Source: Ruania zhangjianzhongii | GTDB lineage: Bacteria > Actinomycetota > Actinomycetes > Actinomycetales > Beutenbergiaceae | Direction of reading: 5' to 3' | Assembly: GCF_008000995.1 (NCBI RefSeq) | Contig: NZ_CP042828.1 | Span: 3,524,882 to 3,588,881 of the forward strand | DNA length: 64,000 nt | Notes under the pieces: model-generated | The model's database searches: none | Seen by the model: only the letters and a program-made list of their open reading frames with translations | Told to the model about the DNA's origin: nothing | Shown: positions 35,836-39,589 of the stretch, piece after piece | How positions within the stretch are numbered: the first letter of the stretch is position 1 | How the letters are laid out: the number at the start of each line of letters is the position of its first letter | Position numbers and translations under genes: made by a program

Positions 35836-36624
35836 TCAGGCGGTGACCTCTGTGATTGCCTCGTCGACGGCTTCGATGGCGGCCTTGAGCTTCTCCAGAA
35901 TGGCAATCGCCTTCTTGATAGCGTCGGTGAGCGTGCCGGTCCACTTGAGTGCACTCGTTGCCGTATCGGCGATCGCGATCGATGCCTGGCCGATCACGAC
36001 CGGCAATGCCGCGCCCAAGGTCGCCCCAGTTTCGATCACATAGGAGATCAATCGGCCGACCAAATCGGCGATCAGGTCGCGGACGATCGTCCGGACAAAC
36101 TCCACCACTGTGCTGGCGACGGCGAAGCCGCACCCGATCCCCATGGCGGCAGAAGAGAGCCCAGTGGTCAGACCGATAAGGAACTCCATCCGCGCGCGAT
36201 ACGCGTCTGCAGCTGCGCCGCGCCACTTGGCCAGCATCTGACTCATCGCAGCCTCGAGGGCAGCAGCCCTTTCGGTGAGCGCCCGCGAGACATTCACCCA
36301 GGTCTCACCGATGCTCATCACCAGCGCTGGGTTACCGGCCAGCACATCCAGCATCTGCGGCAACGGCGGCATGTAATCGAGCAGGAAGGCAGCACAGGAG
36401 GACATCAAAGTGCCCAGTGGATCTGAGACAGCCGCTGCGATGGCTGTGCCCGCACTGGCGGCCGCTTGCAGCCCACCGGCCCAGTCCCCTTCTCCGAACG
36501 CTTTCGCTGCGTCGTAGCAGTCCCCGACGACCGGGGCATAGTCGAGCATCTTCGTCGGGTCTTCGACGGACGCGGCGAACTGGTGGAACGCCTCTGTGCC
36601 GTCGACAGCAATGAGGTCATTCAT
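35836..36624 (-). CDS. WXG-motif protein A, putative ESX/type VII substrate
   Basis: 262 residues, all predicted helical. The middle has a WXG100-like hairpin: helix GETWVNVSRALTERAAALEA, turn KWRGAAADAYRA with the W-x-G at 134-136, then a second helix. Hydrophobic stretches lie before (about 50-85) and after (about 150-215). The first 30 residues are nearly the same as protein B at 38037. GGGGGAG precedes the ATG. No signal peptide is present, consistent with type VII export. The function is unknown; a pore-forming or effector role is possible. Confidence 0.7.
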   Translation of the reverse strand: MNDLIAVDGTEAFHQFAASVEDPTKMLDYAPVVGDCYDAAKAFGEGDWAGGLQAAASAGTAIAAAVSDPLGTLMSSCAAFLLDYMPPLPQMLDVLAGNPALVMSIGETWVNVSRALTERAAALEAAMSQMLAKWRGAAADAYRARMEFLIGLTTGLSSAAMGIGCGFAVASTVVEFVRTIVRDLIADLVGRLISYVIETGATLGAALPVVIGQASIAIADTATSALKWTGTLTDAIKKAIAILEKLKAAIEAVDEAITEVTA

Positions 36625-36788
36625 CTCGGCTCCCCCTGACGATCGCCTGCACGTTCCCCTTGCTCCCCATCGGTACTCCCCTGTCTCTGGGTCTGTCGTC
36701 AGCGTCTCGGACGACCCACCGCCATCGGAAGGAGCCGTCCCTCGTTCACCACGTTAGGGGAGTGAATCAGTCCCGGCGATGGGCAGAT

Positions 36789-37583
36789 CTACCCCGTGGC
36801 GCCAGCCTCGAGCAGACCCGCCACGTGGTCGGCCAGATCCAGTCGGCGCAGGGCTGCCGCGGTGCTCGCATCACGATCTGCGCTGATCAACACCCAGCGA
36901 CCGACACAGACGATCTTCAGCCAGTCCTCGTGCCGGACCTCCAACGCCGGCCGCAACGCAGTCGCGATCACGGCCTCCAGACCTGCCGGCGTGAAGAGCG
37001 CTGTGCTGGTGCCGAAGGGTTGCGGTACCCGGGACAGGCCCACGGCCGGCTGGACGCGCACCGTCCGGGCGCCGGCAGCATTCATGCGGGTGAGGACGAC
37101 GGTGCGGGGCAGCTCGATTCGCGCTTCCACCCCCACTACTTCACGACGGCTGGTGTCCAACCGGGACATCACGCGGACCCACGTGTCTCGGGAGTGGACG
37201 AAGGCTCGGCGGCCTCGGTGCTGACCGGTCGCTTCGTCGGTGATCCGGATCGGGTCCGCGCGCTGGCTCGTCTCTACCTCGCTCAGTGCGTCCGGTGGGA
37301 TCTCCCTCGGTCGCGGGTGGTAGGACCAGCCCACCGAGTGGGCCCACGCCGTCCGCTGCTGACCGGTGGCAGCGTGCACGCGCTGCTGCCCGCCACGGCG
37401 AGCGAGCGATGCCACCACGATCACCACCACCAGGACCACGCCGATGATGGCCAGCACGATGGGCGGATCGTCGGCGATCCGCTGGAACGAGCCGCGGGCG
37501 CGCGCGAAAGCGATGGTGACGACCACGAACAGCCCGACCCAGCCGAGCAGGACGATCAGGAACGCACGCCGACGCGCCCGCAC
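36789..37583 (-). CDS. Membrane protein of ESX-type island, two TM helices
   Basis: 264 residues if it starts at GTG 37583. Two adjacent transmembrane helices (FLIVLLGWVGLFVVVTIAFA and IVLAIIGVVLVVVIVVASLA) near the N-terminus are followed by a soluble domain of about 180 residues of mixed alpha/beta character that I do not recognise. The start is uncertain: no ATG is available after the upstream gene's stop, and a CTG at 37631 would add 16 codons. It follows a YbaB-type gene closely and lies before WXG protein A, so a role with the secreted proteins is likely. Confidence 0.65.
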   Translation of the reverse strand: MRARRRAFLIVLLGWVGLFVVVTIAFARARGSFQRIADDPPIVLAIIGVVLVVVIVVASLARRGGQQRVHAATGQQRTAWAHSVGWSYHPRPREIPPDALSEVETSQRADPIRITDEATGQHRGRRAFVHSRDTWVRVMSRLDTSRREVVGVEARIELPRTVVLTRMNAAGARTVRVQPAVGLSRVPQPFGTSTALFTPAGLEAVIATALRPALEVRHEDWLKIVCVGRWVLISADRDASTAAALRRLDLADHVAGLLEAGATG

Positions 37584-37635
37584 CGCGCCAGCGGCACGGG
37601 CCGGGTCGGGCGACGAGGGGTCGTCGTTCAGGCGG

Positions 37636-38034
37636 CTACTCCGACTCCTCGTCGTCCAGGTCGACCGGCATGGCCTCCTGGACTGCTGCCTTCGTCGCGA
37701 CACGGAGCTCTTCGGCGTCCGCGTACTCCTCGTCGGCGATCGTGTCCATGCCCTCCTTCCACTTGCGGAGGGCATCGTCATGGGCCTTCTGCACGGCCCG
37801 GCTGAGGGTCATCGGTGACTCCGTCGGTGCCCACTCGGCGAACTCGAGGTCGGCCACCAGGCCCTTGGAGTCCAGAGCCACCCGGACCTCGCGCCGCGTC
37901 GACCACGCTTCGACGGAGAATTCCTCCATCCGCGCTACGGCCCGCTCGGCCGCCGCACCGCGCTTCTGCGCCATCTCCCGGAACTGGTCGATCTGTGCCT
38001 GGGCTTCTTCCGGACTCTGGAAGATGTCAGCCAT
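37636..38034 (-). CDS. YbaB/EbfC-like protein of ESX-type island
   Basis: 132 residues. Helix 1 (QSPEEAQAQIDQFREMAQKR), a beta-sheet core (EFSVEAWSTRREVRVALDSKGLVADLEF in part), then helices rich in acidic residues (AVQKAHDDALRKWKEGMD). This is the YbaB/EbfC fold, of which members (EspL-like) sit in mycobacterial ESX loci and probably bind secreted partners rather than DNA. ATG 38034 lies two bases after the upstream stop; a GTG one codon earlier overlaps it. Confidence 0.75.
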   Translation of the reverse strand: MADIFQSPEEAQAQIDQFREMAQKRGAAAERAVARMEEFSVEAWSTRREVRVALDSKGLVADLEFAEWAPTESPMTLSRAVQKAHDDALRKWKEGMDTIADEEYADAEELRVATKAAVQEAMPVDLDDEESE

Positions 38035-38036
38035 CA

Positions 38037-38858
38037 CTATCCCCCTCCTGCACTCTGTGCTTGTGAGTTACCGCTGTTCAGCGCACCGATCACCGTCTGG
38101 ATGTGACCCAGTGCGTCCTTGAGTTGCTCGGTCATCTCGGCGCCGGTCTTGATCGTCTTCACCAGGTCGTCGCTCCACTTGGCCGCCTGCGTGACCGTGT
38201 TGGTGATCGCCGTGACCGCTTGTCCGATCACCACCGGCAACGCGACGCCCAACGTGGCACCGGTCTCGATGATGTAGGCGATCAGACGCCCGACCAGGTC
38301 GGCGATGATGTCACGGGTGATCGTCCGGACAATCTCCACCACCACGCTGGCCACCATGAAACCTGCGCCGATACCCATCGCGCCCGCCGAGAGCGCGGTG
38401 GTCATCCCGATGAGGAACTCCATCCGGGCCTTGTAAGCATCGGCCGCGGCCCCCCGCCAGTTGCTCAGCATCTGCGCCATCGCCGCCTTCAACTCTGCGG
38501 CGCGTTCGGTCAGCGCACCGGCCACGTTGGTCCAGGTCTCACCGATGCTCTGCACCAGCGCGGGGTTACCGGCCAACGCATCCAGCATCTGCGGCAACGG
38601 CGGCATGTAGTCGATCAGGAACGCAGCGCAAGAGGAGAGCAGCGTACCGAGCGGGTCGACGGCGGCCGTGACGGCACCGACCACGGCGGCGCCTCCACTG
38701 AGTATGGCCCCTGCCCAGTCACCATTGCCGAGCGCCTGGGCGTACCCGACGACGTCCCCGACCACGGGCACGTACCCGAGCATCGTGGAAGGATCTTCGA
38801 CGCTGGCGAAAAACTGGTGCGCGATCTCCGTTCCATCGACGGCGATCAGATCGTTCAT
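38037..38858 (-). CDS. WXG-motif protein B, putative ESX/type VII substrate
   Basis: 273 residues, a paralogue of protein A: both begin MNDLIAVDGTE, share the YMPPLPQML segment near 84-92 and place W-R-G at residues 134-136. Differences concentrate in the 40-70 region and the C-terminal 50 residues, where B ends in a polar Ser/Asn/Gly tail. The ATG shares a base with the upstream stop (TGATG), so it is coupled to the EspC-like gene. Probably secreted as a folded helical hairpin. Confidence 0.72.
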   Translation of the reverse strand: MNDLIAVDGTEIAHQFFASVEDPSTMLGYVPVVGDVVGYAQALGNGDWAGAILSGGAAVVGAVTAAVDPLGTLLSSCAAFLIDYMPPLPQMLDALAGNPALVQSIGETWTNVAGALTERAAELKAAMAQMLSNWRGAAADAYKARMEFLIGMTTALSAGAMGIGAGFMVASVVVEIVRTITRDIIADLVGRLIAYIIETGATLGVALPVVIGQAVTAITNTVTQAAKWSDDLVKTIKTGAEMTEQLKDALGHIQTVIGALNSGNSQAQSAGGG

Positions 38859-39221
38859 CAGACGCTCACCGCGCCGCCCGGAAGACCCTGCCAGCTCTGA
38901 CCGGCGTCGTTCTGCGCCAGCTTGGTGTAGCGGCGGGCGGCATCGTCATCCACCTGCACATAGTCGGTGTGGCACTGCTCTACTGCCTGGGCAGTCTTCT
39001 CGATGCCCTGGGCCAGTACGTTTCAGCGCAGCGATCTCGATCCCCTGCACCAGCTGGGCCGGCGGGGTGAAGAACGAACACAGGATGCCGAACGAGAGGG
39101 GTGCGAGGCCGTTGCTCACATTCGCTGCTTCCAGGATGTCGCCGAACCCGCCGCGAATCCCCTGCAGCTCGGAACAGCCTCCGGTCAGCGCGCTCAGCTC
39201 CACCTCTACTGCGTCGCTCAT
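38858..39221 (-). pseudogene. EspC-like (DUF2580-type) ESX-associated protein, frameshifted
   Basis: The first frame from ATG 39221 reads to LLxF-type text: VSNGLAPLSFGILCSFFTPP and VQGIEIAALK. A shift near 39018-39024 is needed to reach the second frame, which continues VLAQGIEKTAQAVEQCHTDY and QVDDDAARRYTKL to a stop at 38858. The total of 364 bases is 3n+1, so one base is extra. The intact product would be about 120 residues and resembles the EspC-type family with its PLSFGILCSFF signature. Real mutation or sequence error cannot be separated here. It overlaps both neighbours by stop-start coupling. Confidence 0.7.
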
Positions 39222-39589
39222 GCCTGTCCCTTCATCTCGGTGAAGATCGCGTCCAACTGGTCGGCGACCGTACTGTCATGGAGCGCAGCGGCCGGGGACC
39301 GTCCACTGCTCGGCGGGCGCACCTTCTCCTGCGCCGCCTGCAGGGCGTCCATGGTGACCGTCCGCAGCTCCTCGGCATCCAGGTCTGCGACGGCATGGTC
39401 GAACTGGACAGCGCGGAGCAATCCCTTGCCGTCCACGGTGACCGTGGCCTCACCACGTTCGGACCGGCCGGTGCCGGTCTTCGCTGGTTCTTCCGCGGTG
39501 TACTCATCGGACGCCGCCATCGCGTCCGCCAAGCTCCGCTGGATCTGCTCGTGCAAGGCCGCGAACTGGGCCCCCGCGTCTTGACTCAT
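39218..39589 (-). CDS. YbaB/EbfC-like protein, first gene of ESX-type island
   Basis: 123 residues with an N-terminal helix (FAALHEQIQRSLADAM), a strand pair (EATVTVDGKGLLRAVQFD) and C-terminal helices, as in the YbaB fold. It heads the coupled minus-strand operon of the island and overlaps the EspC-like gene as ATGA. A -10-like TAGAGT lies seven bases before ATG 39589. A chaperone role for the EspC/WXG proteins is a guess. Confidence 0.72.
   Translation of the reverse strand: MSQDAGAQFAALHEQIQRSLADAMAASDEYTAEEPAKTGTGRSERGEATVTVDGKGLLRAVQFDHAVADLDAEELRTVTMDALQAAQEKVRPPSSGRSPAAALHDSTVADQLDAIFTEMKGQA

Follow-up and report, generated by a model that had tools for sequence, protein, structure and literature searches.

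An Esp-type candidate substrate-chaperone module for the ESX apparatus of Ruania zhangjianzhongii

Introduction

Which machine, if any, is served by a set of packed genes that recall type VII secretion substrates and lie apart from any secretion apparatus? The question is raised by a stretch of DNA of 64,000 nucleotides (the window; C2:3524882-3588881) from the 5.1 Mb, two-contig genome of the actinobacterium Ruania zhangjianzhongii. At positions 35836-39589, its minus strand carries six genes that are transcribed in the order YbaB1, EspC-like gene, WXG-A, YbaB2, a membrane protein gene and WXG-B. An initial annotation, made from the sequence alone, had placed these genes correctly and described them as an orphan ESX-type island and a candidate for an undescribed system. 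The analysis reported here points elsewhere: the operon probably serves an ESX (type VIIa secretion) apparatus, whose genes lie at a distance of about 1.4 Mb, as a dedicated substrate-chaperone module.

Results

The designation as an orphan did not survive a look at the chromosome as a whole. An ESX locus lies on the same chromosome at approximately C2:2.154-2.169 Mb, and the genome search for EccC that the initial annotation had suggested retrieved both halves of this ATPase over the cut-off (867 and 818 bits). EccD was likewise recognised (112.8 bits, cut-off 94.95), together with two WXG100 proteins above the Pfam cut-off, an EccB-like protein just under its cut-off on a cut locus (152.5 versus 154) and a mycosin-like protein under its own (230.6 versus 278.75). 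An ESX/type VIIa apparatus is present in the same genome, as judged from EccB, EccC, EccD and mycosin, and an island devoid of an apparatus is rejected. That a secretion ATPase, EccB-E and a mycosin are missing remains correct for the operon with its called neighbour genes, but not for the genome.

The occurrence of the WXG family follows that of EccC. Among 24 genomes of the bacterial family, nine have a WXG-family match (E ≤1e-10; one of them, G016, through a short partial match) and 18 have an EccC over the cut-off, with all nine among the 18. The same holds at the level of the order, for which 396 genomes were sampled: all 32 genomes with a match (E ≤1e-15) fall within the 96 with such an EccC (Fisher p 2e-22, uncorrected for kinship). 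Toxin-tailed relatives are included in these 32, and EccC-like ATPases under the cut-off were left out of the counts. EccC scores moreover form two groups, of at least 734 bits (59 genomes) and of at most 697 bits (37 genomes). All 32 matching genomes belong to the higher-scoring group and none to the lower (p ~1e-6 when restricted to the seven families with homologues), the split having been chosen after the scores were known. The two groups suggest two ESX subtypes, of which the WXG family goes with the higher-scoring one alone.

Within the genus, the module and an EccC over the cut-off show the same presence pattern. In six same-genus genomes without such an EccC (G001-G006), the module is absent at its site without exception: accD, accE and an isomerase-like gene are all kept, and accE and the isomerase-like gene lie 64-338 bases apart, with no called gene between them in any of the six. 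The operon lies beside accD-accE in Candidatus Ruania gallistercoris, too, as well as in four genus g4 genomes, of which three match Occultella. In a tree of accD DNA, the module-less G005 groups with two carriers, apart from the other five, and thus two changes would be needed, either two losses or a loss followed by regain at the same site. One change is still compatible with the tree of the accD protein, and it suffices in the isomerase tree, from which Occultella is missing.

As regards the operon itself, the genes look protein-coding. Relative to Candidatus Ruania gallistercoris, dN/dS amounts to 0.28-0.43 for all genes except the EspC-like one, whose 5' piece gives approximately 0.58. 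The stop-start packing noted initially applies to YbaB1/EspC-like gene (an overlap of four bases), EspC-like gene/WXG-A (stop and start share one base, as they do at the related locus L030) and WXG-A/YbaB2, but not to WXG-B, whose start lies 164 bases past the end of the membrane protein gene. Scans for sigma-70 promoters and terminators gave no match, with patterns that are possibly unsuited to this host.

WXG-A (38037-38858, 273 residues), the putative WxG partner of the EspC-like protein, is a tail-less WXG100_2/PPE-like protein, and WXG-B (35836-36624, 262 residues) is its paralogue and an extra copy in the R. zhangjianzhongii genome. The annotated duplication of 260-270-residue proteins is borne out by 68% identity over 257 residues (dN 0.281, dS 1.221, dN/dS ~0.23). 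Over the alignment, the two proteins share 66% identity with each other versus 56% with the protein of Candidatus Ruania gallistercoris, which suggests a duplication after that split. Scores for WXG-A and WXG-B, respectively, are 26.8 and 19.0 bits with WXG100_2 (PF25547, cut-off 27), 23.7 and 19.3 with WXG100 (PF06013, cut-off 27.3), 23.8 and 18.3 with the WXG100 model TIGR03930 (cut-off 44.85; 262-273 versus about 100 residues) and 14.5 and 13.5 with EspA_EspE (PF18879, cut-off 27), while the long relative L139 exceeds the WXG100_2 cut-off at 33.3 bits. W-x-G is conserved in 21/21 short WXG-family proteins, including those of L097 and L105 that are cut by contig ends.

In the structure model of WXG-A, a helical hairpin is formed by residues 99-133 and 137-202 with W-x-G in the turn between them. 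The model matches EsxA (3zbh, TMt up to 0.89), PPE15 (5xfs, TMt 0.63) and chains of the PPE15, PPE4 and PPE41 complexes, with all E-values above 0.1. Predicted hairpin, W-x-G turn and fold match together assign WXG-A, as far as the model goes, to the WXG100/PPE fold superfamily. The central hairpin with hydrophobic flanks proposed initially can be recognised in WXG-A, which has 19-residue hydropathy peaks of 1.82 (49-67), 1.90 (159-177) and 1.84 (193-211); those of WXG-B are somewhat lower. With the WXG profile as query, solved structures gave mostly fusion and spike proteins of viruses as well as coiled coils (best E 2.2e-5), which we read as chance helix matches; the ESAT-6-like chain 4i0x came up at E 0.0088. 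A toxin operon was also considered for the window copies and rejected, as neither WXG protein contains a domain over its cut-off outside the WXG region; a sub-threshold match of WXG-A is Mce4_CUP1 (19.3 versus 32.6). The earlier suggestion of effectors or pore-forming partners is half supported: the two proteins resemble ESX substrates, but an effector domain was not found.

The EspC-like gene (38858-39221) undergoes a one-base change of reading frame at approximately 39023 (39015-39030), which divides it into pieces at 39221-39024 and 39022-38858. The 91-residue open reading frame of the first frame (39221-38946) has no Pfam match. With a profile built from eight EspC-like relatives, the pieces read separately score 61.0 and 24.8 bits, while 300 random pieces taken from the window reach 5.7 bits at most, and intact relatives exceed the cut-off of 23.5 for PF10824 (L030 25.8, L031 37.0, L037 33.2). 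By this profile the gene is EspC-like, as in the initial annotation, but it is not intact and its C-terminal part lies in the next frame. The second piece encodes, near its C-terminus, the sequence YVQVD, an instance of the YxxxD/E export motif that occurs in 55 of 69 EspC-like proteins versus 24% of shuffled tails. The frame change is either a sequencing or assembly error or a genuine lesion, and in the latter case the EspC-like partner loses its export signal.

Both putative chaperones, YbaB1 (39218-39589, 123 residues, first gene of the operon) and YbaB2 (37636-38034, 132 residues), exceed the Pfam cut-off of 25.5 for YbaB_DNA_bd (PF02575) with 31.7 and 29.2 bits, in agreement with the initial annotation. 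Their family profiles match the YbaB structure 1pug at E 2.4e-4 and 0.0026, respectively. With the NCBIfam equivalog of the nucleoid protein, YbaB1 scores 22.7 versus a cut-off of 49.45 and YbaB2 gives no match. The membrane protein gene (36789-37628) has an uncertain start codon, which the gene caller sets to the GTG at 37583, and encodes two hydrophobic helices and a soluble domain whose predicted fold is that of TtfA, at 12% identity. The next structural matches are the ribosome-translocon chains 7tm3_4, 9i78_4 and 6w6l_7, which we take to be CCDC47, and the type III secretion chaperone SycT. Searched against solved structures, the EspC-like and membrane protein profiles returned one weak match each. 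Nocardioides terrigena encodes, outside the module, a further protein that is more distantly related to the TtfA-like membrane protein (61.6 bits; L075:10831-11514).

To place the operon among its relatives, 78 loci from a profile scan of genome contigs (best 80 of 97 confirmed) were combined with the window and nine earlier loci, less the repeats L068, L069, L074 and L076, to give 84 sources with 83 WXG matches; L080, L082, L099, L111, L125, L141 and L144, with no WXG-labelled gene from the simple gene caller, stand outside the counts. Nineteen proteins of 262-308 residues are tail-less and occur at 18 loci in 17 genomes, namely the window, Ruania, Occultella and kin, G009, G013, Microbacterium, Nocardioides and Cellulomonas. 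Each of the 18 loci is equipped with YbaB1, YbaB2 and an EspC-like gene, the last of these being split in the window. Seven of them contributed to the first profiles, and the result is the same for the nine that lay outside profile building (L070, L071, L072, L073, L075, L077, L078, L090, L104). The membrane protein gene was detected at 15 of the 18, twelve by the first profile and L071, L072 and L077 by a profile excluding them, with no profile match at L073, L090 and L104. The other 64 WXG matches, which include longer proteins as well as some truncated at contig ends, have an EspC-like neighbour in 48 cases and a YbaB-like one in 41, but never YbaB1 or the membrane protein gene (0/64 each). 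A Pfam scan recognised tails in 5 of 12 long homologues: a GH-E nuclease (L037), a non-specific endonuclease (L095), RHS (L130), TNT (L135) and an ADP-ribosyltransferase (L142).

A tree was built from 39 N-terminal regions, 18 of them from tail-less proteins and 21 from the others. In it, the tail-less proteins occupy one side of a 100/100 branch that is present in 100% of bootstrap trees, with a warning of the tree program that long branches meet at this very branch. The grouping speaks for a single old lineage without tails rather than for recent losses of tails. ESX core genes are present in four of the 84 sources (L036 of G013, L133, L138 and L141), and in G013 the five-gene module lies beside mycosin-EccB-EccD and a WXG100 pair.

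Several further sets deserve mention. Downstream of the mycosin gene in R. zhangjianzhongii, a YbaB-domain protein (35.0 bits) is followed by a 548-residue protein with an EspC-like start (20.3 and 25.1 bits), and together they make up another Esp-like set (L029:1994-4400; C2:2166493-2168899) that differs from the first. A WXG100 protein on its own (63.5 bits) is encoded at C2:1037831-1038082 of this genome, distant from both the operon and the ESX locus. G013 has two longer relatives with EspC-like partners (L037:7092-9053, with the GH-E nuclease tail, and L038:6607-8811), next to which small downstream genes may be immunity genes. In G009, an extra EspC-like gene, a distant 241-residue WXG protein and a 107-residue protein lie at L032:1641-3000, separate from the module.

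Discussion

Profile, fold and gene order, together with the shared occurrence with EccC, support a relationship of the operon to type VII secretion. Starting from what is seen directly, i.e. the genes, their families, two predicted folds, the joint presence and absence of module and EccC, and homology with toxin-tailed proteins, a mechanism of pairing, chaperoning, membrane hand-over, export and a role outside the cell can be proposed by analogy, which as a whole is probably correct. The EspC-like protein with its YxxxD signal and the long WXG protein with its WxG turn would pair into a helical bundle, as is thought for EspC-EspA, EspF-EspE and PE-PPE. The two YbaB-fold proteins could keep this pair soluble and unassembled in the cytosol, as is thought for EspD, EspH and EspL. 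The YbaB-like EspH binds EspE and is required for secretion of EspE and EspF (PMC6107294), and EspL stabilises EspE, EspF and EspH (PMC6319747). The TtfA-like membrane protein may then pass the pair to the EccBCD complex, or tether it there, before the EccC motor would read the C-terminal YxxxD and the folded pair would be exported. Outside, since a toxin tail is missing, the pair would act as a structural or membrane-active partner and not as a toxin; the missing tail, together with the moderately hydrophobic helices, also favours a role as channel or scaffold.

A number of observations weigh against this proposal. The genomes in the co-occurrence counts are not independent, and 27 of the 59 genomes with a higher-scoring EccC have no homologue, so that the module is not a core part. 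Five of the six module-less genomes carry a distant EccC-like ATPase under the cut-off (281-293 bits, frames of 1,516-1,540 residues; G001:C1:408457-410520, G002:C1:686261-688324, G003:C1:734972-737035, G005:C9:14294-16357, G006:C38:55492-57555), while the best score in the sixth, G004, is 195 bits. These five may have another type VII-like machine; what is absent together with the module is hence one kind of EccC and not necessarily every such machine, which slightly lowers our confidence. Such distant ATPases occur in many other genomes, too. Fourteen of the 69 EspC-like proteins, including all six from Nocardioides, have no YxxxD/E, and most of the 14, among them those of Nocardioides and Microbacterium-type hosts, show FxxxD/E at the same place. 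With its EspC-like gene split, the module of this strain may be damaged, unless a sequencing error accounts for the split. Finally, the WXG proteins stay below the curated cut-offs of Pfam and NCBIfam, and the model of WXG-A has middling confidence (pLDDT 64.2, pTM 0.51) and a best Foldseek E-value of 0.14, with unrelated helical proteins at similar Z.

Other explanations can be set against the same data. As a special case of the proposed export, the EspC-WXG pair might form a channel or pore in the envelope or in the membrane of a neighbour, with the YbaB proteins preventing insertion at home. The moderately hydrophobic helices of WXG-A (49-67, 159-177 and 193-218) would suit this, and a parallel has been proposed in EsxE-EsxF, which makes membrane-spanning channels (PMC7810871); since the segments are just moderately hydrophobic, model confidence is low at 48-87 and the proposal is by analogy, a pore appears possible but doubtful. 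The WXG proteins could instead be degenerate or "empty" polymorphic toxins that have lost their tails and are kept as acceptor platforms for new ones. Relatives with nuclease, RHS, TNT and ADP-ribosyltransferase tails that have an EspC-like partner, as well as the split EspC-like gene of the window, would be compatible with such decay. Purifying selection, the restriction of YbaB1 and the membrane protein gene to the tail-less kind, and the grouping of the tail-less proteins on one side of the well-supported branch, opposite 21 long ones and with the long-branch warning in mind, rather than as scattered losses, make it improbable.

Hardly likely, too, is a role of the membrane protein in lipid or glycolipid transport like that of TtfA, by which the module would export a lipid-protein complex or remodel the membrane: the identity to TtfA is 12%, a shared fold is no proof of function, and the matches to translocon chains and SycT fit protein handling equally well. 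A non-secreted complex at membrane and nucleoid, with DNA-binding YbaB proteins, the membrane protein as anchor and the WXG proteins as cytosolic scaffolds, could draw on the name of the Pfam family, in which YbaB/EbfC is a DNA-binding family, and on the fact that only visual inspection speaks for the absence of a Sec signal. The joint absence of module and EccC within the genus, the position of the G013 module beside ESX core genes, and the relationship to EspC and WXG100/PPE render it very improbable.

Among known systems, the closest parallels are the mycobacterial EspACD and EspEFH sets of ESX-1, which likewise combine an EspC-family partner with YxxxD/E, a WxG partner and a dedicated YbaB-like chaperone. 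Like the present operon, espACD is remote from its ESX locus, by more than 260 kb (PMC6107294). The Ruania-type module differs in having two YbaB proteins that flank the pair and a TtfA-like membrane protein, in WXG proteins that score higher with WXG100_2 than with EspA_EspE, and in its hosts, which are Ruania, Occultella, Microbacterium, Cellulomonas, Nocardioides and two kin. EspL, a small YbaB-fold protein of ESX-1 that is encoded with type VII substrates and proposed as a chaperone (PMC6319747), resembles the module proteins by description, but the module has two distinct YbaB proteins per operon. PE-PPE pairs with EspG share a small YxxxD/E partner and a long helical WxG partner, with fold matches of WXG-A to PPE complexes, but the module carries YbaB proteins; the EspG profile found nothing in the 24 family genomes, in a search that gave no signal in its controls either and so is no evidence of absence. 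WXG100_2-like polymorphic toxins with GH-E nuclease, RHS, TNT or ADP-ribosyltransferase tails have a homologous N-terminal WXG region and EspC-like or YbaB-like neighbours, yet bear a long C-terminal part and small downstream genes in place of YbaB1 and the membrane protein. LXG toxins and their Lap partners of type VIIb systems also join a long helical substrate to small helical targeting partners, but belong to Bacillota and another apparatus, and the chaperones named for them are of EspG-like rather than YbaB fold (PMC11217815).

In view of this parts list, the term "undescribed system" is too strong. The operon is best described as a tail-less variant of an Esp-type substrate-chaperone module that belongs to an ESX apparatus and includes two YbaB proteins as well as a membrane protein with a TtfA-like domain. 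Among the matches listed in the literature searched, with subscription papers outside reach, there was no description of such a module outside mycobacteria: papers joining at least two of type VII secretion, YbaB and EspC-like proteins dealt with mycobacteria and with a Granulicatella secretome, and TtfA was absent from the matches listed for the membrane protein link. We found no description there of the tail-less lineage, the second YbaB protein, the TtfA-like membrane protein or these hosts.

TtfA itself is a partner of MmpL3 that is needed for trehalose monomycolate transport, and the protein of the module is predicted to share its fold. A more daring, rather unlikely proposal is that the TtfA-like protein is a new, dedicated type VII membrane receptor which takes the YbaB-chaperoned tail-less pair to EccC, the pair being exported as a structural conduit for its toxin-tailed cousins. 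These host bacteria are not known to make mycolic acids. If true, the proposal would put the TtfA fold into protein export in bacteria without them, and would suggest that TtfA itself derives from a substrate hand-over factor.

Conclusions

EspH-like proteins have been called unique to mycobacterial ESX-1 (PMC6107294). If actinobacteria beyond the mycobacteria, with their simpler ESX locus, have a related layout, this would suggest that EspC-WXG pairs and their YbaB chaperones predate ESX-1. It would also offer environmental organisms as a test ground for how YbaB-fold chaperones and a TtfA-like protein feed a type VII machine.

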